In this document: one piece after another, positions 10,791 through 34,742 of the stretch | Layout of the letters: the number at the start of each line of letters is the position of its first letter | Position numbering within the stretch: the first letter of the stretch is position 1 | From: Alphaproteobacteria bacterium | Lineage (GTDB): Bacteria; Pseudomonadota; Gammaproteobacteria; Burkholderiales; Burkholderiaceae_C | Assembly: GCA_030054175.1 (NCBI GenBank) | Contig: JASGCM010000009.1 | Span: forward strand, 1-64,000 | Direction of reading: 5' to 3' | Length of the DNA: 64,000 nucleotides | The notes under the pieces: generated by a model | Told to the model about the DNA's origin: nothing | The model's input: the letters and a program-made list of their open reading frames with translations, nothing else | Databases searched by the model: none | Program-made: the position numbers and the translations under genes

Positions 10791-11966
10791 TTGAGGCAAA
10801 TTCAAGTGAAGATGATCAAGAACATTTCGGCTGCCCTGGCCAGCGGCATGCTTGCCGCGTCAGGCAGCGCTTGGGCCGTCAACGACCTTCCCGGTGGCCC
10901 GGGCGTGCGCCAACTCAATCTGCAGCCCGCCGTCACCCAAATTGCCGCTGAACAAGCTTGGTTGCACTGGTTCATGCTGATCATCTGCACGGTGATTTTC
11001 GTCGCCGTATTCGGGGTGATGTTCTACTCCATCTTTAAACATCGGAAGTCTTTGGGCCATCAGCCCGCCAACTTCCACGAGTCGGTCAAGGTCGAGATCG
11101 CCTGGACTGTGGTTCCCTTCATCATCGTTATTCTCATGGCTCTGCCCGCCACTAAAGCGGTGGTTGCTCAGAAAGACACCTCCAACGCCGATCTGACCAT
11201 CAAGGCCACCGGTTACCAGTGGAAATGGGGCTATGACTATCTGAAGGGTGAGGGTGAAGGCATTGGTTTCATTTCCACCTTGGACAACGAGCACCGCGAA
11301 ATTTCCAACAGTGGTGCCAAAGGCGTGCAAATTGACAACTACCTGTTGAAAGTGGATAACCCGCTGGTGGTGCCCGTCGATAAAAAAGTGCGGATCATTA
11401 CCACGGCCAATGATGTGATTCATGCCTTTGCTGTGCCTGCTTTTGGCATCAAGCAAGATGCCATTCCCGGCTTTGTTCGTGATACTTGGTTCCGTGCTGA
11501 AAAAATCGGCGACTTTTATGGCCAGTGCCAGGAACTGTGCGGCAAAGAGCACGCTTACATGCCCATTCATGTCAAAGTGGTGAGTGCCGAAGACTACAGC
11601 AAGTGGGTCGTCGAGCAGCAAAAGGCCATGGCCGCCAAAATGGACGACCCCAACAAGGTCTGGGCCTTGGAAGACATCGTCAAGCGGGGTGAAAAGGTCT
11701 ATGCCTCCAACTGCGCCGCCTGTCACCAGGCGAATGGCAAGGGCGCTGGCCCGATCAAAGCCCTTGACGGCGCGGCTGTGGTGCTCGACAGCGACAAAGC
11801 CAAGCAAATCAAAATCTTGCTCAATGGCGCTGGCAATGGTGCCATGCCCGCTTGGAAACAGTTGTCTGACACAGACATCGCCGCGGTCATCAGCTACACC
11901 AAGAACAACTGGTCTAACAAAACCGGCCAATTGGTACAGCCTTCCGATATCAAAGCATCTCGTTAA
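10791..11966 (+). CDS. coxB: Cytochrome c oxidase subunit II with C-terminal cytochrome c domain
   Basis: CuA motif DFYGQCQELCGKEHAYMPIHVKV and heme motif CAACH. Confidence 0.95.
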   Translation: MRQIQVKMIKNISAALASGMLAASGSAWAVNDLPGGPGVRQLNLQPAVTQIAAEQAWLHWFMLIICTVIFVAVFGVMFYSIFKHRKSLGHQPANFHESVKVEIAWTVVPFIIVILMALPATKAVVAQKDTSNADLTIKATGYQWKWGYDYLKGEGEGIGFISTLDNEHREISNSGAKGVQIDNYLLKVDNPLVVPVDKKVRIITTANDVIHAFAVPAFGIKQDAIPGFVRDTWFRAEKIGDFYGQCQELCGKEHAYMPIHVKVVSAEDYSKWVVEQQKAMAAKMDDPNKVWALEDIVKRGEKVYASNCAACHQANGKGAGPIKALDGAAVVLDSDKAKQIKILLNGAGNGAMPAWKQLSDTDIAAVISYTKNNWSNKTGQLVQPSDIKASR

Positions 11967-23245: not shown

Positions 23246-23322
23246 GCGGCTGTAGCTCAGTTGGATAGAGTACTTGGCTACGAACCAAGGGGTCGTGGGT
23301 TCGAATCCTGCCAGCCGCGCCA
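23246..23322 (+). tRNA. tRNA-Arg (anticodon ACG)
   Basis: 77 nt cloverleaf: GCGGCTG/CAGCCGC acceptor, anticodon arm CTTGG-CTACGAA-CCAAG, GGTTCGAATCC T arm, encoded CCA. Confidence 0.97.
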
Positions 23323-23325
23323 ACT
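23306..23325 (+). repeat. att direct repeat, left copy (tRNA 3' end)
   Basis: TCCTGCCAGCCGCGCCAACT, identical to 34723-34742. Confidence 0.9.
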
Positions 23326-23368
23326 TTCTAAGTCTATGATTTAGAACGGATTTTTAAGGGTTATTGAT

Positions 23369-23393
23369 ATCAGGTGTCATTACTTGGTGTCAT
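23369..23393 (+). repeat. 25-bp terminal direct repeat, left copy
   Basis: ATCAGGTGTCATTACTTGGTGTCAT, identical to 34631-34655; contains two GGTGTCAT octamers 13 bp apart. Confidence 0.9.
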
Positions 23394-23394
23394 C

Positions 23395-24909
23395 ATGGCT
23401 CTAAAAATTCCGAGATTGTTTAAGAGTAGACACGGGGTGTTCGCACTACGTGTCTATTTTTTTGACCAAAACGGCAAGCGACGACTGAAGCAGCACAGTT
23501 TAGGAACGAAAGACAGCGCACAGGCGCGAGTTCTCGCATTGCGGTTTAACCTTCACTTTGAAGAAGCACAATGCGACATGGAACGAAAAAAGACAGTCTT
23601 CGAGGAACTGGCCGACAAGGTTAGCAACCCGCTAAAAATCACCATTGGTGCGAATGTGCTGGACTTTGACCCCAGCAACCCCGCAGAGGTGGCGTATGTC
23701 GAAAAGTTGCGAGCCGAACAAGCCGCATACGACAAGTGTGGAGCGGAAAAAGTCTTAGCCCAACTGTGGACACCCGACCAAGCCCAGCCGCAAGCGCGGC
23801 AGCGTCAAAAGGGCAAGCCGTTCAGCGAAGCCACGGAAATTTATCTAGTAGAAAAGACGCTGGACAACAAGCAAACCACGATTGACGAGAAGCGCCGCAC
23901 CTACAAGGATTTTGTGGCCATCTATGGCGACTTGGACATTAACCAAATCACCAAGGCCGAGATGGTGGCTTGGAAGAGCCGCGAGATTAAGCGCGACCTG
24001 AGCGCAAATCGCATCAACAAGCGGTTAGGACAGGTGAACGACTTCTTTAACTGGGCTATCAAACATGGCGAATACACCGCCAGCGACCAAAGCCCATGTG
24101 AAGGGCTTTTTGTCAGCAAAAAAGCCAAGTTAGCCAAGGCCACAGAAAACCGTGAGCCGTTCACAAATGATGATGTAAAAGCCATTTTTGGGAATGGCTA
24201 CCACGAGCGATTTTTTGCCCCAGACCATTATTGGATTCCGCTTGTGTGCTTGTTTTCAGGCGCACGGCGCGAGGAAGTGGGCGACCTACTCAGTGCCAAT
24301 GTCAAAACCGTGGACGGCGTACCAACCTTTTTAGTTGAAGAAGGAAAGACCAAAGACGCACGGCGAACCGTGCCAGTACACCAAACCCTGATTGAATTAG
24401 GGTTTATGGACTACGCCAAGGCAAGGCAAGAGGCAGGCCATGCCAACCTATTCCCCCACCGCCCAAAGGGCGCAGGAGGACGAAGCAAAGAAGCAGGGCG
24501 GATGTTTAGACTTCGCCTGCGCACTGATTGTCAAATCACAAACACGCGCAAGACCTTACACAGTTTGCGGCATACCGTCATCACCCGACTACACACGGCA
24601 GACGCAAACCCCGCCCATGTGAAGCAAATCACAGGCCACAGCAGCGAAGCGAGAGGCGTTCACTTTCAGACCTATACCCATGACATAGGGCTGACCCAAC
24701 TGGCCGAGACGCTGAACCGCCTAGCCTACCCGCACGACTTCGCCAGTCTGAGACTGGCAGACCCCACCTTTAAGGCGTTTTTTGCGAAAGAAAAAACCGC
24801 CGACGAAAAGCAAGCAGAGCGGGACGCAAAGAACGCCCAGCACTTGAAAGCCAAGGCCGAGCGTGAAGAGCGCAACAAAGACAAAAGAAAGAAGGACAAT
24901 AAACAATGA
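23395..24909 (+). CDS. Tyrosine recombinase / integrase
   Basis: SGARREEVGDL (Arg box), LHSLRHTVITRL, GHSSEARGVHFQTYTH (C-terminal catalytic region); adjacent to tRNA att site. Confidence 0.92.
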   Translation: MALKIPRLFKSRHGVFALRVYFFDQNGKRRLKQHSLGTKDSAQARVLALRFNLHFEEAQCDMERKKTVFEELADKVSNPLKITIGANVLDFDPSNPAEVAYVEKLRAEQAAYDKCGAEKVLAQLWTPDQAQPQARQRQKGKPFSEATEIYLVEKTLDNKQTTIDEKRRTYKDFVAIYGDLDINQITKAEMVAWKSREIKRDLSANRINKRLGQVNDFFNWAIKHGEYTASDQSPCEGLFVSKKAKLAKATENREPFTNDDVKAIFGNGYHERFFAPDHYWIPLVCLFSGARREEVGDLLSANVKTVDGVPTFLVEEGKTKDARRTVPVHQTLIELGFMDYAKARQEAGHANLFPHRPKGAGGRSKEAGRMFRLRLRTDCQITNTRKTLHSLRHTVITRLHTADANPAHVKQITGHSSEARGVHFQTYTHDIGLTQLAETLNRLAYPHDFASLRLADPTFKAFFAKEKTADEKQAERDAKNAQHLKAKAEREERNKDKRKKDNKQ

Positions 24910-25820
24910 CCAAGTTAATCACCCCCGCAGCAGTAAAAAAACGAGAGTATTGGATTGAAGAAATTCGCAAATTAAGCGGGAATTTCGGCGATGATTCAAG
25001 CCGCCTAGAGACTGAATTAGCCACGGAGGTCAAAAGCGAAGGCTTTGGCGTACTGATTGACCATCTACGGTTATGCGGAGACATTCCAGAATCATACGGC
25101 CATGATTCGAGCGAAGAAAAACTTTATTCAAAATACACAGACAGTCTTCTCAGTGAAACCTATAAGACAATGGGCTTAAAGAGCCTAGTTTTGAAAGAGC
25201 GAGCAGACGCGGCAGACGTTGAGGCATTCGCAAAGAATTTTAGTTTTGTCGCAGATGCCAAGGCATTCAGGTTAAGCCGAACGGCAAAAAACCAAAAGGA
25301 CTTCAAAGTTCAGGCGATGGACGGATGGAAGCGTGGCAAACCTTTCGCCATGGTAGTTTGTCCAATTTACCAGTTGCCCAACAAATCCAGCCAAATTTAT
25401 GAACAGGCGACGGTTAGAAATGTCTGTGTTTTCACCTATTCGCACTTGGCAATGTTGGCAACCTTTGGAGCAAGCGAGGGCAACGAAAAATCAGAAGAAC
25501 TTTTAGAGCAAGTGTTCAAGGCCATCCCTGCTTTGAATCCTTCAAAAGACGCTTCGCAGTATTGGGCGGCCATCAATCGAACAATGCTGGGCTTCTCAAA
25601 GGTAATGGATGACCTTTGGAGCATTGAAAAGCAAGCAGCCGTCGAATCCATTGCGGCGGCGAAAAATGAAGCGCTTACCTTCCTAGCCAAAGAGCGGGAA
25701 AAAATCATGCGGATGAGCCATGATGAAGCCTTGAAAGAGTTAATCAAGGTTCACAAAATAGAGAGCAAAATCGTAACGATTAACTCAGTCAGCAACAGTG
25801 GAATTCTTTCCATCAAATAG
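24906..25820 (+). CDS. HindIII-family type II restriction endonuclease
   Basis: FVADAKAFRLSRTAKNQKDFKVQAMDGWKRGKPFAMVV closely resembles the HindIII catalytic region (remembered as VADAKSFRLSRTAKNQKDFKVKAL); followed by a methyltransferase. Confidence 0.9.
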   Translation: MTKLITPAAVKKREYWIEEIRKLSGNFGDDSSRLETELATEVKSEGFGVLIDHLRLCGDIPESYGHDSSEEKLYSKYTDSLLSETYKTMGLKSLVLKERADAADVEAFAKNFSFVADAKAFRLSRTAKNQKDFKVQAMDGWKRGKPFAMVVCPIYQLPNKSSQIYEQATVRNVCVFTYSHLAMLATFGASEGNEKSEELLEQVFKAIPALNPSKDASQYWAAINRTMLGFSKVMDDLWSIEKQAAVESIAAAKNEALTFLAKEREKIMRMSHDEALKELIKVHKIESKIVTINSVSNSGILSIK

Positions 25821-25829
25821 GAAATTAAG

Positions 25830-26672
25830 ATGGAAACTTTCAAAAATTCAATCCTTACGGGCGACTGTTTAGACGTACTAAAACAGTTCCAGGCCGATTC
25901 GGTGGACATGGTTTTAACTTCGCCACCCTATGACAACTTGAGAACTTACAAGGGGTTTAAATTTCCGTTTGAAGAAATTGCCTCAGAGTTGTTTAGGGTT
26001 GTGAAAACTGGCGGGGTTGTGGTTTGGGTTGTTTCGGATGCGACCATTGAAGGCACGGAGACGGGCACGAGTTTTAAGCACGCCCTACACTTCAAATCGA
26101 TAGGGTTCAACATCCATGACACGATGATTTTCAGGAAAAGAAATCCAATCCCCCAGATTTACCGCAAGCGCTACAACAATGAATTTGAGTTCATGTTCGT
26201 ATTCAGCAAAGGGCAGGTAAAAACGCATAACCCCATCATGGTTGATTGTCTTCACGCTGGGTTAGAGTTGAACGGAACGACTTATAAAAACTACTCCAAG
26301 CACGAGCAGAAGCGCGAAAAAATGGCCGCGCCTGTGAAAGCCCAAAAAATCAAGGGCAATATCTGGGAGTATGTCGTGGGTAAGAACTTGGAAGACCAAG
26401 AGGCCAAAGGGCATCCCGCGCCATTCCCGTGCGAACTAGCGCGAGACCACATCAAATCTTGGTCAAATGAGGGAGACATTGTTTTAGACCCAATGTGTGG
26501 CAGCGGAACGACCTGTAAGGTCGCAAAGGAATTGGGCAGAAATTTCATTGGAATCGACATAAGCCAAGAGTATTGCGACATTGCCAAAAAGCGCACGGGT
26601 TTGATTGAAGCCGAGCCGACGGGCAAACAATTGAGACTTGATTCACTATTAACCGAAGCCGTGGACAACTGA
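25830..26672 (+). CDS. DNA (adenine-N6) methyltransferase, beta-class order, R-M partner
   Basis: TSPPYDNLRTY (catalytic) N-terminal to DPMCGSGTTCKVAKELGRNFIGIDIS (SAM site). Confidence 0.92.
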   Translation: METFKNSILTGDCLDVLKQFQADSVDMVLTSPPYDNLRTYKGFKFPFEEIASELFRVVKTGGVVVWVVSDATIEGTETGTSFKHALHFKSIGFNIHDTMIFRKRNPIPQIYRKRYNNEFEFMFVFSKGQVKTHNPIMVDCLHAGLELNGTTYKNYSKHEQKREKMAAPVKAQKIKGNIWEYVVGKNLEDQEAKGHPAPFPCELARDHIKSWSNEGDIVLDPMCGSGTTCKVAKELGRNFIGIDISQEYCDIAKKRTGLIEAEPTGKQLRLDSLLTEAVDN

Positions 26673-26810
26673 CCCGCCCCCACCACAAGGGCGGGGACGG
26701 CCTTCGGTGCGTCAGTTGACCACAGCCAAAACCCTGACGCGCAGGCCGTGGACAATCTAGCGATTGACACACCGCCCACTTGCCCCACCAGTTTTTATTT
26801 AGGATGAAGC

Positions 26811-27221
26811 ATGGAGAGAAAAGACATAATTCAAGCGATTCAGGAAGGTTTGCTAAAAACAATGCTCACGAATCACGACTTGAAAGCAACCGACAGAAAC
26901 CCAACGGCTGGCAATATGCTTTTGGCGTTTAACAGTTTTCAAGAGTTTTACGACGACTTCAAAAAACAATGGCCGCTCCCAAGGTATTCACACGTCGATA
27001 AACTTTTTGCCGCGCTGATTGAAGTTTATTTTGTTTGGCAATTAAAGTCTTTTTTAAACCCCCAGAAAGGGGATGATGATGAGACATGGCGGCAGGACAT
27101 TAAAGAAGCCACAAAGGGCATAGAAGCAGAACTTGTTCAAATTCTGAAAACAAAGTATCCGCACATATGCGCCGAGATTGAAGAAAAACGGAACGCACAA
27201 CCGAATTCGCCGATTTTCTAA
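26811..27221 (+). CDS. Hypothetical protein (IME cargo)
   Basis: 136 aa ORF, not recognised; stop overlaps the start of the next ORF (TAATG). Confidence 0.6.
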   Translation: MERKDIIQAIQEGLLKTMLTNHDLKATDRNPTAGNMLLAFNSFQEFYDDFKKQWPLPRYSHVDKLFAALIEVYFVWQLKSFLNPQKGDDDETWRQDIKEATKGIEAELVQILKTKYPHICAEIEEKRNAQPNSPIF

Positions 27222-27634
27222 TGATTCAGAATATTGACTTTGATCCAGCCGTATTTCTAGACATAGTAGAGACCTGTAAGAAACACGAAGCCATTTTGCC
27301 AGACAGTGTGTTTTATGATGTTTTCCGTTATTACGACAACGCAAGTGCTCTCATTGCTTATGTGTTGCTGTTTGACGAAAACCTTGAACCAGACCAGAAC
27401 TTACTTGATTTTTTGAACGCCCAAGAAGATGGCACAGTTCCAGAAATTATTCAAACGAGCGACTCGTTCGACAATCCAGTACTGATGATTTTGTGTGATT
27501 TGAAGGGGGACTGTGAAAAAGGGTTTTCATGGTTGTTGGAGAACTATCCACTTTGGCATAGACACAAAATTAAAGATCGCGAAGAGAAGAGGCTAGATAA
27601 GCGATTGGAAAAAGAACCACCCAAAGCACTTTAA
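27221..27634 (+). CDS. Hypothetical protein (IME cargo)
   Basis: 137 aa ORF, not recognised; 1-nt overlap with the preceding gene suggests coupled translation. Confidence 0.6.
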   Translation: MIQNIDFDPAVFLDIVETCKKHEAILPDSVFYDVFRYYDNASALIAYVLLFDENLEPDQNLLDFLNAQEDGTVPEIIQTSDSFDNPVLMILCDLKGDCEKGFSWLLENYPLWHRHKIKDREEKRLDKRLEKEPPKAL

Positions 27635-27640
27635 AAGTAG

Positions 27641-27676
27641 AACCCCGCCGACTCTTGACAAATCGGGCGGGGTTTC
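27641..27676 (+). terminator. Probable terminator of cargo operon
   Basis: Perfect 9-bp stem AACCCCGCC/GGCGGGGTT right after the 27634 stop; short T tract. Confidence 0.65.
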
Positions 27677-27744
27677 GTACTTTAAGTTCATGACTGTGTG
27701 CGCAGCCATAAATTCAGATTAGCCAATCTTAAATTTATGTCAAG

Positions 27745-27772
27745 ACCGCCCGCAGAAATCGGCGGTTTTTTT
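27745..27772 (+). terminator. Rho-independent terminator-like hairpin
   Basis: ACCGCC-CGCAGAAATC-GGCGGT followed by TTTTTTT. Confidence 0.65.
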
Positions 27773-27778
27773 GCGTCA

Positions 27779-28062
27779 GGGCGTAAGCCCTCCCGAGTCG
27801 GAACCGCTGTAAAGCCAAACGAAAGTTTGGCGGCGTGGTTAGACTGGTGAAATTACACAGCCACGGTGAAGAGCGTAAAGCGACACTCACTAATTGCCCG
27901 CGAGCGGGTGAAGTCGCTAGATAAGCCGCCGCAGGACTTATCCCGAAGCGTGATTTTGTTTTGTGCCATAGCCCGCCCAAATCGAAATCGTTCAACGCCG
28001 AGCAACGCCTAATCCGAAATTTGTTTGGTGCGAGAACCGCGCCGCAACAAAACGGATTAGGG
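27779..28062 (+). ncRNA. Candidate structured non-coding RNA (class unknown)
   Basis: Consecutive stems: GGGC-GUAA-GCCC (27779-27790), GCCAAAC-GAAA-GUUUGGC (27814-27831), AGCGAC...GUCGCU enclosing CCCGC/GCGGG (27879-27918), GAUAAG/CUUAUC (27920-27942), and a long hairpin CCUAAUCCG...CGGAUUAGG (28008-28061) with inner UUUGUU/AACAAA and GGUGCG/CGCGCC stems. No convincing ORF. Confidence 0.45.
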
Positions 28063-28224
28063 ATGAACTTGGCCGAAAGTTGAACTAACAACGTTTAGAT
28101 ATAACACTTGTCTAAACCAAGTTGTAAACAAAACCAGTTTAGTAAGCAGAATTATTCTCAAACACCGAACGCACCGAAGCCGCTTGCGCGTCTTCCGTGC
28201 GTTCGGTGTTCCTCACTCGTAAAA

Positions 28225-28240
28225 CCTAGCGCTTCCAGCG
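28225..28240 (+). repeat. 16-bp direct repeat CCTAGCGCTTCCAGCG, copy 1
   Basis: Identical to 28294-28309. Confidence 0.85.
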
Positions 28241-28293
28241 TATGCGCTTTGCTTGCGCTCAGGGTATCGCATACGCTCCAACCCCTTGTAAAT

Positions 28294-28309
28294 CCTAGCG
28301 CTTCCAGCG
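28294..28309 (+). repeat. 16-bp direct repeat CCTAGCGCTTCCAGCG, copy 2
   Basis: Identical to 28225-28240. Confidence 0.85.
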
Positions 28310-28333
28310 CATATGTTTTTTTTCGTAAGGCGC

Positions 28334-28363
28334 TTGACAAATGCTTGCGGGTCTGCGTAATTT
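28334..28363 (+). promoter_or_regulatory. Predicted sigma70 promoter for mobilization operon
   Basis: TTGACA (28334-28339), 18-bp spacer, TAATTT; AAGGAGGT at 28386-28393 before the ATG at 28397. Confidence 0.55.
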
Positions 28364-28396
28364 ATTTTCATGACCTACAACTTTTAAGGAGGTGTC

Positions 28397-28717
28397 ATGA
28401 AAAATTTAACCGTCAGGTTAAGCGACTTAGACCACAAACGATTGACCGAGCAGGCAATCAAAAAGGGCGGAACAGTGAGCGACGCAATGCGCGACATCGT
28501 GAGCCAATTTTTTGACAAGCAAAGTCAAACGCAAAACGACAAGGCGGAGCACGAAAAAACCCGCGCAAAGTTTGCCGACATTGACAACGCTTTGGCGAAC
28601 CAAGTCGCAGACTTTCAGGCGCTCAAAGCCGATGGCGAGAAAACCCAAAACCTTGTCATTCAATTGGGGCGAATGTTTGGGGAGTTTGTCGCCACAGTGG
28701 GAGCATCGAAAAAATGA
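28397..28717 (+). CDS. Ribbon-helix-helix relaxosome accessory protein (TrwA/MobC-like)
   Basis: MKNLTVRLSDLDHKRLTEQAIKKGGTVSDAMRDIVSQFF resembles RHH N-termini; first gene of mob operon. Confidence 0.65.
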   Translation: MKNLTVRLSDLDHKRLTEQAIKKGGTVSDAMRDIVSQFFDKQSQTQNDKAEHEKTRAKFADIDNALANQVADFQALKADGEKTQNLVIQLGRMFGEFVATVGASKK

Positions 28718-29058
28718 GCACGCTAAAAAATCTTTTCCTTCGCGCAGCGGAAACCAAAGACCCCATCGAATTCAAAATTCTGGCGCGTTCAATCGCCGCC
28801 CGAGTTGGCGACAGAGACGCAAACGGGGTGTATTTCATGAAGCCCGAGTTTCAAACGAAGACGAGCCGAGCGATAAAACCCGCTTCGCTGGACTACCCCG
28901 ATAACTATTTTGAGCACGCCCAAACGCGCAAATATGTGGAAGGGTATTTGACCCAATTGGAAATCAAATTTTTGTCGGGAAATTTGAACGCCACGGGTTC
29001 ACTACTTAAAACCGCAGAGCGTAGATTGAAAACATTAATAACAGGAGACAAGCAATGA
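28714..29058 (+). CDS. Hypothetical protein, mob operon
   Basis: 114 aa ORF overlapping upstream gene by ATGA. Confidence 0.6.
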   Translation: MSTLKNLFLRAAETKDPIEFKILARSIAARVGDRDANGVYFMKPEFQTKTSRAIKPASLDYPDNYFEHAQTRKYVEGYLTQLEIKFLSGNLNATGSLLKTAERRLKTLITGDKQ

Positions 29059-29276
29059 ACACCATCGACTTTGACGAGAACCGCTATTTTTGCGAGCACT
29101 TAATTAAATTGTTGGCAGAAGACGACCACAAAACTTTTCAATGCTTACTCGCAGACCACGGATTGACGCTAACCGATTTTGTGGATTTGACGATTAACGC
29201 ATTGATGCCACCGCCGAACCTCACGGGCTACTTTTTGGCAATCCGCACTTATATCACCACGGGAGAATTGAAATGA
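29055..29276 (+). CDS. Hypothetical protein, mob operon
   Basis: 73 aa ORF overlapping both neighbours by 4 nt. Confidence 0.55.
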   Translation: MNTIDFDENRYFCEHLIKLLAEDDHKTFQCLLADHGLTLTDFVDLTINALMPPPNLTGYFLAIRTYITTGELK

Positions 29277-29458
29277 ACTTTTTAGACACAGCAAAAGACA
29301 GCGCAGGCGAAACATTGAACACGCTGGGCGAGTTCATTCAGAAAGACAAAGACCCCATCGAACAAGCCGCCATCAACATTTTTTTGATGTTGATTGTGGC
29401 CGCCGCGATGTTCGCGGCAGGTTGGGCGTTTGGGTTTTACGCAGGAGCAGCGCAATGA
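29273..29458 (+). CDS. Small membrane protein, mob operon
   Basis: 61 aa with C-terminal TM NIFLMLIVAAAMFAAGWAFGFYAG. Confidence 0.6.
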   Translation: MNFLDTAKDSAGETLNTLGEFIQKDKDPIEQAAINIFLMLIVAAAMFAAGWAFGFYAGAAQ

Positions 29459-29721
29459 AAAAAGCACTTTTAGCCCTCGCACTCGCATCAGTGGTAGCGA
29501 CCGCCACAGCGCAAAACGCCGACAGTACAGTACTTCAAAACAATGCGGGCATGGCCGTTAAAAATGTGCGCTTGTTTCGAGTTTTAGCAGGCCAGTCAAT
29601 CACGGTTTACAGTTTTAAGCAATGCCTAAATCAGTACGCCCCGCCCCAAGGTTTGGGCGGCTACTGGATTTTGAACAACACGACGCAAACAGATATGAAT
29701 TTTGTTTGTGAAGGGTGGTAA
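29455..29721 (+). CDS. Small exported protein, mob operon
   Basis: Signal peptide MKKALLALALASVVATATAQN; two Cys residues in mature part. Confidence 0.65.
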   Translation: MKKALLALALASVVATATAQNADSTVLQNNAGMAVKNVRLFRVLAGQSITVYSFKQCLNQYAPPQGLGGYWILNNTTQTDMNFVCEGW

Positions 29722-29723
29722 TC

Positions 29724-31643
29724 ATGAGCCGCGCCGCTTACATCGACTGGGGCATGAATTCCGTGCCCCTCGACCCCCAAACACCCCGCCGCGACTTGCG
29801 GGGGGCTTTGGTGCTGGGAGCACTGGGAGCCGCCGCAGGGTTTGCGGCAGCATGGGCAGGACTGGGGCACATCCTGCCCACGGAAACCAGCGCCGTGGGC
29901 TTTCTCACAGACCTGACAAGCCAAAAACTCACCTTCTCAAACGTGAGTGGAAATCTTGCCGCCCGTGGCGGGGCTTCCGTGTTGACCGCCGCCGCGTTGG
30001 GCGTGTGGCTGTTTGTCGAAGGCTTCAAGCCACGGGAGCGACTGCGCCACATCCGTGGCCGTCGTTATCTCGATGGACAAGAAGCAATTAAAAAAGCGCA
30101 GCAACTCGCAAAGGCAGAAATCAAGGACAGCGCAGAAGGTGTGCCCCTCTCGCAAAACTTCAATTTTTCCGCAGAGCGGGAAACAACCCACACGCTTTGC
30201 GTGGGTGGCGTGGGCGCAGGTAAAACGACCATAGCCCATCACATTTTGCGGGGAATTTTTGCCCGCGACGACCGCGCTTTGATTGTGGATTGGAAGGGCG
30301 ACTTTACCCAGGCCTACAAAGGCCGAATTTTTAACCCACTCGACCGCCGTTCTTTGCGGTGGTGCGTGGCGTTGGATGTAGTCAGTGCTTTAGACGCGCA
30401 AGCCTTTGCGGGGCAAATCATCCCCGACCCCGTGGGTGGTGCCGACCCGTTTTGGGCGAACTCATCACGGGCAGTCCTGGCAAGTGTCGTTAAGCATTTA
30501 CAAGCGACCAAGCCCAAGCGTTGGACATGGGGCGACCTTTACGAAACGGCGTGCGTAGCACTTCCCCAACTTCAAGAAATCGTTAAAACGCAGAACCCGC
30601 ACGCCTTCGCGTCAATCAGCGAAGCGGGCAAACAAACGCAGGGCGTTTTGTCTCAAATGTTGGCACAAATGGACAGTGTGCGAGTACTCGCAGAAGCGGA
30701 GGCAGACGACCCCGAGGCCGTGGGCTTTTCGATTCGGCATTGGCTGGCAGGCCATGGCAGAGGACAAATCATTCTCGCAGGCAGTACAGAACACGAACGA
30801 CTTTGCGCGGGGGCAATGCGGGCGGTTATCACGGCAGCGGCGGCACAACTTCAGGCACTGCCCGACAGCAAAACCCGCAGGGTTTGGCTTGTATGCGACG
30901 AATTTCCAAAGTTGGGCAAGTGTGAAGCCGTGCCCAAACTGTTGGCTTTTGGGCGCTCCAAAGGGGCGCGTGTGGTGCTACTCGCTCAAGACTTGGCGCA
31001 ACTGCGCCACATCTACGGAGCAGACGAAACCAAGAGCATCACCAGCATGGTGGGCACAATTTTGATAGGCAGAACACAAGGCGGCGAAACCGCCGACATG
31101 CTGGCAAAACAAGTGATAGGAACGCGGGAAGTTGAAAGACGCAACACGACCACGCAGGGCAACGGCGCGAGTTCGTCGAGTTGGCAGCGTGATGAATTGC
31201 TTGTTGTCCACCCCTCAGAACTTCAAACAGAACTTGGTAAGCGTGGCGACCACATCCAAGCCCTGATTGTGGGACTGGGCGACTATGTTTTGAATGTGCC
31301 TTTTGATTTTGTCGCACCGTCAAAAAAGCGTGAGGCGATGGAATGGCGCGAGTGTTTCCAAGGCAAGGCCAAGACCTTGCCCACTGTGGCAAAAGACGAG
31401 CCTTTGGCCGTGTCGAAAGACACGAAAAAGGAAGCCGAAAAAGAGGACGGACAAGACGCGGAGCGGCAAGCCGTGGAGCATCAAGTTCACGCAGCGATTG
31501 ACCCCGCAGCGGGGGCGTTGTTGGCGGGCTTGGCGATGTTTGAGCAGTTAGCAAACAACAAGACCATCACCCCACAGGCCGCGCCGACACATCAAGCGCA
31601 ACGCTTGAAAAACGAACACGAACAAGAAGCAGAGCAGGAGTAA
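29724..31643 (+). CDS. Type IV coupling protein (TraD/TrwB-like ATPase)
   Basis: HTLCVGGVGAGKTTIAHHILRGI (Walker A), RALIVDWKGDFTQAY, VWLVCDEFPKLGK (Walker B); N-terminal TMs. Confidence 0.88.
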   Translation: MSRAAYIDWGMNSVPLDPQTPRRDLRGALVLGALGAAAGFAAAWAGLGHILPTETSAVGFLTDLTSQKLTFSNVSGNLAARGGASVLTAAALGVWLFVEGFKPRERLRHIRGRRYLDGQEAIKKAQQLAKAEIKDSAEGVPLSQNFNFSAERETTHTLCVGGVGAGKTTIAHHILRGIFARDDRALIVDWKGDFTQAYKGRIFNPLDRRSLRWCVALDVVSALDAQAFAGQIIPDPVGGADPFWANSSRAVLASVVKHLQATKPKRWTWGDLYETACVALPQLQEIVKTQNPHAFASISEAGKQTQGVLSQMLAQMDSVRVLAEAEADDPEAVGFSIRHWLAGHGRGQIILAGSTEHERLCAGAMRAVITAAAAQLQALPDSKTRRVWLVCDEFPKLGKCEAVPKLLAFGRSKGARVVLLAQDLAQLRHIYGADETKSITSMVGTILIGRTQGGETADMLAKQVIGTREVERRNTTTQGNGASSSSWQRDELLVVHPSELQTELGKRGDHIQALIVGLGDYVLNVPFDFVAPSKKREAMEWRECFQGKAKTLPTVAKDEPLAVSKDTKKEAEKEDGQDAERQAVEHQVHAAIDPAAGALLAGLAMFEQLANNKTITPQAAPTHQAQRLKNEHEQEAEQE

Positions 31644-31649
31644 AAAATT

Positions 31650-34604
31650 ATGTTGGATTTAGTACCCATCAATGACGCAGACTATTACAAGTCGCTGAGC
31701 CAGTCCGAATACTACACGGGCGCAGAGAAAGGCGAACCCGCAGGCAAATGGGGCGAAGGAGCCGAAAAAATCGGCATTGACCCGAGCCGACCATTGGACG
31801 CTCACACCCTCGACCAAGTAATGATGGGCTGGAAGCCGAACGGGGAGAAATTACAACAAAACGCCCTCACCCCTCAAATGCTGGCAGAGAACGAACAGGC
31901 GAGAAAAGACAAGAAAGAACCGCCGCATCAAATGCGCGTGGGCATGGACTTGACCTTTTCAGCGCCTAAATCCGTGTCGGTTTTGTGGGCGAATGCTTCG
32001 CCCGAACTCAGGGAGCAAATCAGCAAAGCGCAGGCCGACGCAGTGGCCGAGGCCATGCGCTATCTACGCGACCGCGTGGAGACACGCACGGGCAAAAAAG
32101 GAGAGCACAGGGAGAAGCCCGCCGCCCTGATTTTTGCGACTTTCGAGCACTCCGACACACGGGAAAAAGACCCCAACCTTCACACGCACACGGTTGTTAG
32201 CAATGCCGTCATTCGAGAAGACGGCAAGACCAGCGCAATCGACCAGAACGGGCTATATGTCCACAAATTGGCCGCAGGCACGACCTACCGCGCCTACCTT
32301 GCCCAGCAGTTGCGGGGCATGGGGTTCAAGTTGGAAGAAGACAAAGACAACGCGGGGATTTTTCAAGTTGCGGGCATGGACAAGAACTTGGAAAAGCACT
32401 TTTCAAAGCGCAGCGAACAAATCAAAGCCAAGGTCAAAGAAACAGGTATGGACAGCGCCCAGAGCCGCAGGAATCACGCGGGCAACACCCGCAAGGCGAA
32501 GGAAGAAATCGACCGCCCCGCACTCTTTGAACGGTGGCAAAACGAGAGCGCAGAGCGCGGGTTTGATGCGTCAAAAATCGACGCACTCAAAGAGGCCACC
32601 CCCGAGCCGTTCACCATGCCCACGACGGCCAAAATCTTGGAACGCTTGACAGAGAACGAGAGTTTTTTTGAGGTCAAAGACCTGGAGCAAGTCTTAGCGG
32701 AGTTTGGGCAATATCAAGACTTCGACAGGGAAAAAATGAGGGACGAAATTTTGGCAAGCCCAGAGTGTGCCAAGCGGGTATGGGTGAACGAGCGCACGAT
32801 TAAGACAAAGAACAAGAAAGACAAGGACAAGCCAGACGTTCGCACAGTCGGCACCTCGGCCACGGTTTACACATCCCAAGCCCTGATTGACTTGGAAAAA
32901 AACGCACTCGACAGCGCAGCAGCGCGAAGCACGGAAACCCGCCACCACCTGCCCGCCGCGACCGTGGCCGCGACGATTCAGGGAATCGAAGAAGCGGCAG
33001 GCTTTCAATTACGCGACGAGCAGCGCGAAGCCGTGGAGCACTTGACCCAAAAGAGCGGAGGCGTTGCCATCCTCAGGGGACTGGCAGGCACAGGCAAAAC
33101 CACGGCACTGAAGGCCGTCAGCGAATCATTCAAGGCCGAGGGCTACAAAGTCCACGGCGCAACAATTTCAGCGCAGGCAGCGGGCATCCTAGCCAAGGAA
33201 ACAGGGCTAAAAGCCGCGACCATTGCTCAAACCCTCATTGACTTGGACAAAGGCAAAACCACACTCACCGAGAAAAGCGTTTTACTCATTGACGAAGGGG
33301 GCATGGTGGGAAGCCGCGACTTTGCGAGGCTTCAAAAACACGCCGACGCAGCAGGGGCAAAACTCATAGCCGTGGGCGACGAGCGCCAATTACAAGCCAT
33401 TGCCAGCGGGGGCATTTTTGAAGCCCTACAACGACACGCAGGCATTGCCACCGCAGACCTAAAAACTATCACCCGCCAGCAGGACGCGCAAGACCGCGAA
33501 GCGTCAAAACTACTCTACGAAGGCCGAGCCGAGGAAGCCCTAAAAATCTACGAAGACAAGGGGCAAATCAAGACGCACAAGCACCGCGACAGCCTCATGA
33601 TTCAACTCGCAAAAGACTTTGCGAACGACCCCAGCGCAATCGACCAAAAAATGATTGTGGCCGCGACGAAGTCCGAGGCGCGGTTGTTGAATGAACAAAC
33701 CCGCGAAGAACTCAAGGCAGCGGGGCAACTTGACAGAGACACGGGCGCACTGTTCGAGAACGGGGACGGCGACACCTTGGAAATGAGCAAGGGCGACCGC
33801 ATCATTTTCAAAAAAAACAACCTAAGCCGTGGCATCGTGAACAACCTAAAAGGCACGGTCAAAGAGTGCCACCAGCAGGGGGAACACTCGATTTTGAAAA
33901 TCGAATGCGACGACGGCAAAACCCGCGAAGTCAACACAGAAGATTACCCGCACTTGCGGCACGGGTACGCAATCACAGGCCACGCCTCACAGGGCGCGAC
34001 CATTCAAAAATCCTTTGTTCTTTTCAACCGTGGCGCGTCGGATTTAAGCTGGGGGTATGTCGCCCTGACGCGGCACAAAGACCGCGTGAATTTGTACGCC
34101 ACCGAAGCCGACCGCCCAGACTTAGCCGAAAAATTCAGCAAAGCGGCCATGAAAGGCACGACGCTAGACCTCAAGGAATACGAGCAGGCCACGCCAGAAG
34201 CGGCAGCAGGCAAAGACATGGAAGGCAGCGCACCAAGCACGGCGCAGGGCTTGGCTTCGAGCGCGGGGAAAGGGCAACAGTCCGCAGGCGGACAGATGCC
34301 CCAGCAAGCCGCCAAAACGACCGCACAAGCCCCGCAGGCGGGGCAGGCAGGGGGAATTCAGCAAAGCCAAAACACAGGGCAGAAAATCAACTGGTCAGCC
34401 ATTGAGCGGGTTAGCCCAACACTTTCAACCTTTTTAAAACTGTCTATGGCGCATGGGACAAATGGCGACGCTTCTTTGGTTTCGCTTTACGAAGCCTTAG
34501 CAGCAGGCGCAAGCCGAGGCGCAGAACAGCACGAAGCCCAAACGCAGAGCCAAGCTCGTGAGCAAGCCAACATTCAGCGCCAAGGCGCAGAGATGGAGCG
34601 TTGA
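31650..34604 (+). CDS. MobF-family conjugative relaxase-helicase (TrwC/TraI-like)
   Basis: N-terminal tyrosines DYYKSLSQSEYYTG, DLTFSAPKSVSVLWA, histidine motif DPNLHTHTVVSNAV, helicase Walker A GLAGTGKTTALKA and VLLIDEGGMVG. Confidence 0.95.
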   Translation: MLDLVPINDADYYKSLSQSEYYTGAEKGEPAGKWGEGAEKIGIDPSRPLDAHTLDQVMMGWKPNGEKLQQNALTPQMLAENEQARKDKKEPPHQMRVGMDLTFSAPKSVSVLWANASPELREQISKAQADAVAEAMRYLRDRVETRTGKKGEHREKPAALIFATFEHSDTREKDPNLHTHTVVSNAVIREDGKTSAIDQNGLYVHKLAAGTTYRAYLAQQLRGMGFKLEEDKDNAGIFQVAGMDKNLEKHFSKRSEQIKAKVKETGMDSAQSRRNHAGNTRKAKEEIDRPALFERWQNESAERGFDASKIDALKEATPEPFTMPTTAKILERLTENESFFEVKDLEQVLAEFGQYQDFDREKMRDEILASPECAKRVWVNERTIKTKNKKDKDKPDVRTVGTSATVYTSQALIDLEKNALDSAAARSTETRHHLPAATVAATIQGIEEAAGFQLRDEQREAVEHLTQKSGGVAILRGLAGTGKTTALKAVSESFKAEGYKVHGATISAQAAGILAKETGLKAATIAQTLIDLDKGKTTLTEKSVLLIDEGGMVGSRDFARLQKHADAAGAKLIAVGDERQLQAIASGGIFEALQRHAGIATADLKTITRQQDAQDREASKLLYEGRAEEALKIYEDKGQIKTHKHRDSLMIQLAKDFANDPSAIDQKMIVAATKSEARLLNEQTREELKAAGQLDRDTGALFENGDGDTLEMSKGDRIIFKKNNLSRGIVNNLKGTVKECHQQGEHSILKIECDDGKTREVNTEDYPHLRHGYAITGHASQGATIQKSFVLFNRGASDLSWGYVALTRHKDRVNLYATEADRPDLAEKFSKAAMKGTTLDLKEYEQATPEAAAGKDMEGSAPSTAQGLASSAGKGQQSAGGQMPQQAAKTTAQAPQAGQAGGIQQSQNTGQKINWSAIERVSPTLSTFLKLSMAHGTNGDASLVSLYEALAAGASRGAEQHEAQTQSQAREQANIQRQGAEMER

Positions 34605-34630
34605 AAGTGCTAAAATCCAGCCCAAGGGGC

Positions 34631-34655
34631 ATCAGGTGTCATTACTTGGTGTCAT
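34631..34655 (+). repeat. 25-bp terminal direct repeat, right copy
   Basis: Identical to 23369-23393. Confidence 0.9.
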
Positions 34656-34722
34656 TCAAAAACCCACCTGTTTTTGAAAATTTTCCTTATAAATCATGGT
34701 GTTAAGGGTATGGGTAAACGAT

Positions 34723-34742
34723 TCCTGCCAGCCGCGCCAACT
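34723..34742 (+). repeat. att direct repeat, right copy
   Basis: TCCTGCCAGCCGCGCCAACT, identical to 23306-23325. Confidence 0.9.

Follow-up and report, generated by a model that had tools for sequence, protein, structure and literature searches.

What does the noncoding DNA beside the candidate origin of transfer of a small mobilizable element do, and in which form would it act? The question arises from a window of 64,000 nucleotides, the whole stretch of DNA analysed here, in which the first-pass annotation had described positions 27745 to 28062 as a single folded RNA. Our data support a nonrandom fold with a + strand bias at 27986 to 28125, a segment that lies only partly within those limits; a multistem RNA across all of 27745 to 28062 is not supported, because the greater part of it shows only the folding expected of shuffled sequence.

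The locus belongs to an element of 11.4 kb (23306 to 34742, + strand) that combines an integrase at a tRNA gene, att repeats and a relaxase, as expected of an integrative mobilizable element. The att sites are 20-bp direct repeats (23306 to 23325 and 34723 to 34742) at tRNA-Arg(ACG), and the genes follow in the order integrase, HindIII-type restriction enzyme (Pfam E value, 4e-114) and methyltransferase, orf26811, orf27221 and the structured block; then come the oriT region, a gene of the ribbon-helix-helix (RHH) type, a TrwB-type coupling protein and a MobF relaxase. Judging from the list of open reading frames, the element appears to have no complete type IV secretion system of its own. The orf27221 gene (27221 to 27634, +; 137 amino acids) overlaps the stop codon of orf26811 and is an orphan, with no match in Pfam, PADLOC, NCBIfam, plasmids or the genome of the sister element described below; it was seen only in this element, where it adjoins the structured block, and the two may belong together. 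On the other side of oriT, the RHH-like (TrwA-like) gene (28397 to 28717, +) has a promoter-like site before its start (28334 to 28363), the score of which falls inside the range of shuffled sequences.

The block (27635 to 28125) is present in a single copy and is taken as noncoding. The earlier statement that the region has no credible reading frame was borne out: the minus-strand ORF at 27735 to 28091 has a flat GC content by codon position (0.50/0.53/0.54, compared with second-position values of 0.26 to 0.43 in the genes of the element), a family search with it gave no match, and it was rejected as a protein-coding gene for want of a codon signal. The region was also correctly placed, after a terminator-like hairpin and before the oriT candidate. 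That hairpin (27745 to 27774, +; ACCGCC/GGCGGT, then seven T residues) comes after the left operon. Beyond the block lie a palindrome of the oriT region (28161 to 28210) and the oriT candidate (28216 to 28319), the latter consisting of two 35-nt direct repeats (83% identical) and a 10-bp inverted repeat (28237 to 28246/28268 to 28277). Within the window, 27655 to 27774 (+) carries a promoter-like TTGACA-17-TACTTT sequence (27655 to 27683, with a score within that of shuffles), an inverted repeat (27707 to 27739) and the T-tailed hairpin; together these would give a small RNA of ~85 nt.

Folding strength is unevenly distributed. As a whole, 27745 to 28062 has a z score of -4.0 on the + strand and -2.8 on the - strand. 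The portion from 27775 to 27985, which holds most of the stem-loops listed earlier, has a z score of -1.3 and cannot be told apart from dinucleotide shuffles, except for a local hairpin with a GAAA loop at 27796 to 27850 (+; z score, -4.0). The better-than-chance fold to be looked for in a structured RNA was found instead at 27986 to 28125, which reaches -57.3 kcal/mol with a z score of -8.1 on the + strand, lower than any shuffle, and -4.1 on the - strand. The controls, 39 intergenic regions, were drawn from ~390 kb of this genome and from the window. Against these, 300-nt windows of the block scored -4.1 to -5.9, compared with -4.05 for the best control, and the strand difference of the block (4.0) exceeded that of all 39 regions (99th percentile of the controls, 1.9). 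When the element was scanned by 140-nt windows, two of the top three fell in 27950 to 28229, the second of which includes the oriT palindrome. All six wobble pairs in the block helices are G-U on the + strand and none is G-U on the - strand, a 6:0 count that is only suggestive, since the helices were chosen from the + strand fold.

The segment comprises two hairpins on the + strand. Hairpin A (27990 to 28085) is built from GUUCAAC/GUUGAAC, GCCGAG/CUUGGC, CCUAAUCCG/CGGAUUAGG, UUUGUU/AACAAA and UGGUGCG/CGCGCCG; hairpin B (28088 to 28125) has ACAAC/GUUGU around GUUUAGA/UCUAAAC. Two partners are available to the CUUGG sequence at 28068 to 28072, the GCCGAG arm of hairpin A and CCAAGUU at 28117 to 28123, and the two pairings are mutually exclusive. 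The interrupted hairpin reported at 28008 to 28061 is present and tolerates G-U pairs, with 9+6+7 pairs (two of them G-U) and not 9+6+6; it is the tip of the 96-nt hairpin A, so that the strongest structure extends past the end first assigned to the region. The other stem-loops were at their stated sites, GGGC-GUAA-GCCC at 27779 to 27790 and GCCAAAC-GAAA-GUUUGGC at 27814 to 27831, but they do not make up one uniform folded RNA. In the nested stem, AGCGAC/GUCGCU was located at 27879 to 27918, whereas the inner CCCGC/GCGGG (27897 to 27908) can form at most four pairs, since full pairing would leave a 2-nt loop.

Is the block a member of a known family? At both gathering and relaxed thresholds, Rfam models matched nothing within it, the one hit (E value, 4.9) being a chance-level match outside. 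The suggestion of an orphan OMEGA or HEARO RNA shares with this locus the idea of a structured RNA in a mobile element; it was discarded, since the covariance model gave no match at an E value of ≤5 and no IscB/TnpB-type nuclease gene is present in the element, adjacent or otherwise, as had been reported for the neighboring genes. The large ORFs encode the integrase, the restriction-modification proteins, the coupling protein and the relaxase, and the remainder are too short for IscB or TnpB. Integron attC sites are imperfect hairpins with spaced boxes, extrahelical bases and end boxes of the form RYYYAAC/GTTRRRY. The hairpin at 28008 to 28061 is likewise imperfect, with spaced boxes and extrahelical bases; however, its end boxes are CCTAAT/ATTAGG without the AAC/GTT core triplets (28007 to 28062), and the element has no integron integrase, so an attC identity was rejected. 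A MITE-like element was rejected on the basis of the single copy and the absence of long-range inverted repeats, and a type III antitoxin RNA on the absence of tandem repeats. FinP-type antisense RNAs of F-like plasmids consist of two stem-loops in a small noncoding region near the oriT of a MobF system. The block resembles them in these respects, but it overlaps no opposite gene leader and has no Rfam match. The description that suits it best is an accessory hairpin element that flanks oriT and matches no described family.

The accessory status rests on a comparison with a sister element, L103, which was found among the family genomes at a tRNA-His gene and has a relaxase that is 53% identical. 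Its order is integrase, a methyltransferase and another gene replacing the restriction-modification genes, a homologue of orf26811 (37%), the oriT region, an RHH-type gene, TrwB and relaxase; other genes thus fill the slot that here holds the HindIII-type restriction enzyme and the neighboring methyltransferase (24906 to 26672). The oriT palindrome is also present in L103, ~66 nt past the point at which the orf26811 homologue ends with its stop codon; 11 of its 13 outer pairs are unchanged, and the other 2 show compensatory changes (A-T to G-C and G-C to T-A). Neither orf27221 nor any sequence like 27635 to 28125 is present there. Because the sister keeps the palindrome without the block, the palindrome is the common core and the block is accessory; the block was either gained in this element or lost from the sister, which presumably transfers without it. 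Searches for other homologues were negative. BLASTn with 27640 to 28396 against 398 order-level and 400 family-level genomes, plasmids and phages returned the query itself and one 37-nt chance match in a mutL-like gene; a single-sequence covariance model of 27986 to 28125 gave no hit when run on 199 relatives, on other MobF loci and on the sister; and relaxase scans of genome contigs (two) found no relative. Elsewhere in the same genome, L034:12336-13058 (G000:C15), near a tRNA-Val gene, encodes a relaxase C terminus that is 72% identical, the rest having been lost. It is what is left of a second element from the same lineage and retains no oriT region.

The most likely active form of the block is, we tentatively suggest, a + strand RNA of a regulatory or untranslated-region type. 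The exceptional + strand fold, the strand bias, the mutually exclusive arms and the absence of a coding signal favor this reading, whereas the terminator directly upstream opposes it, as does the promoter search within the block: no site in the block, or any other site in the region, scored above shuffled sequence. The failure of the homologue searches and the presumed transfer of the sister without the block also count against it. The block is an accessory noncoding segment that accompanies orf27221 and separates the last gene on the cargo side from oriT; its core, the hairpin pair (27990 to 28125), is apparently selected for single-strand folding. Transcription of the + strand would proceed toward oriT and the trw operon, the product may act as a regulatory or untranslated-region RNA, and the exclusive pairing of CUUGG would permit a switch. 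The full proposal, in which an undescribed structured RNA (or a switch made of single-stranded DNA) has its core at 27990 to 28125, travels with orf27221 as an accessory module on the oriT side of MobF mobilizable elements and controls transfer or establishment, is a good deal more speculative and on present evidence improbable.

The RNA reading is placed only slightly ahead of a somewhat unlikely one in which the block acts as single-stranded DNA leading oriT into the recipient, its hairpins forming on the transferred strand immediately after entry and serving in complementary-strand priming, as an ssi/Frpo-like promoter or to extend the site bound by the relaxosome. Gene order suggests that the block's side is the leading side: the block adjoins oriT opposite the trw genes, and all the genes there point to oriT, as they do in known leading regions (PMC11541004). 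The fold also holds with DNA energy parameters (27986 to 28125; z score, -5.7 on the + strand and -3.6 on the - strand). However, the putative transferred strand is the - strand, which folds more weakly, and the sister does without the block. Frpo/ssi single-strand promoters occur in plasmid leading regions, and Frpo is defined by -35 and -10 boxes rebuilt in a hairpin (PMC9849209, PMC11541004). The block is similarly a very stable noncoding stem-loop in a probable leading region beside a MobF oriT, but it lies downstream, not upstream, of the genes pointing to oriT, it folds better on what would be the nontransferred strand, and no -35/-10 pair stands out in its hairpin arms; a standard Frpo was therefore rejected. 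A MobF element of the same genus, L038 (G444), is in keeping with the single-stranded DNA reading in that it has paired hairpin modules on the same side of oriT. These two paralogous modules (L038:10749-10883 and 11001-11134; ~135 nt each) sit between a trwA-like gene and the genes of the leading side, which point to oriT and include an SSB-like one, retain pairing through double changes in 7 of 42 pairs and are candidate single-strand promoter or priming sites.

It is unlikely that the block has no present function and is a recently acquired or decaying remnant beside oriT, with hairpins inherited from its source. Its absence from the sister and from every collection searched would fit such an origin, as would the shuffle-like folding of 27775 to 27985; however, an intact 96-nt hairpin with a z score of -8.1 would be hard to maintain without selection unless it had arrived recently, and terminal inverted repeats of at least 12 bp were not found. 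Very unlikely is an extension of the oriT operator array by double-stranded repeats to which the RHH protein or some host factor would bind, with folding as a by-product, since the inverted repeats GTTTAGA/TCTAAAC and AACTTGG/CCAAGTT near oriT and the RHH-type gene downstream are outweighed by stems of 9+6+7 pairs broken by loops and G-T pairs, which are atypical of operators, and by a strand bias that would be left unexplained.

Should the hairpin pair have a function, an accessory structure, unrelated in sequence, would join the small number of single-strand elements known next to oriT, and small mobilizable elements would then be seen to exchange modules of this kind. Deletion tests are simple to design, since the sister element already shows which part is the conserved oriT palindrome and which the accessory block.

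A further structure was observed at the other end of the element. The integrase start (probable ATG at 23395) lies inside a long G-U-rich hairpin (23345 to 23415, +) beside attL, and a 140-nt window there has z scores of -8.5 on the + strand and -1.9 on the - strand. The sister retains the direct repeats (GGTGTCAT, two copies/GGGGTCAT, two copies) and a corresponding hairpin (L103:12664-12733, -), in which 2 of the 18 pairs carry compensatory changes and 4 are changed on one side. It possibly serves in translation control of the integrase or contains arm-type sites, and as an RNA it has better support than the block beside oriT.
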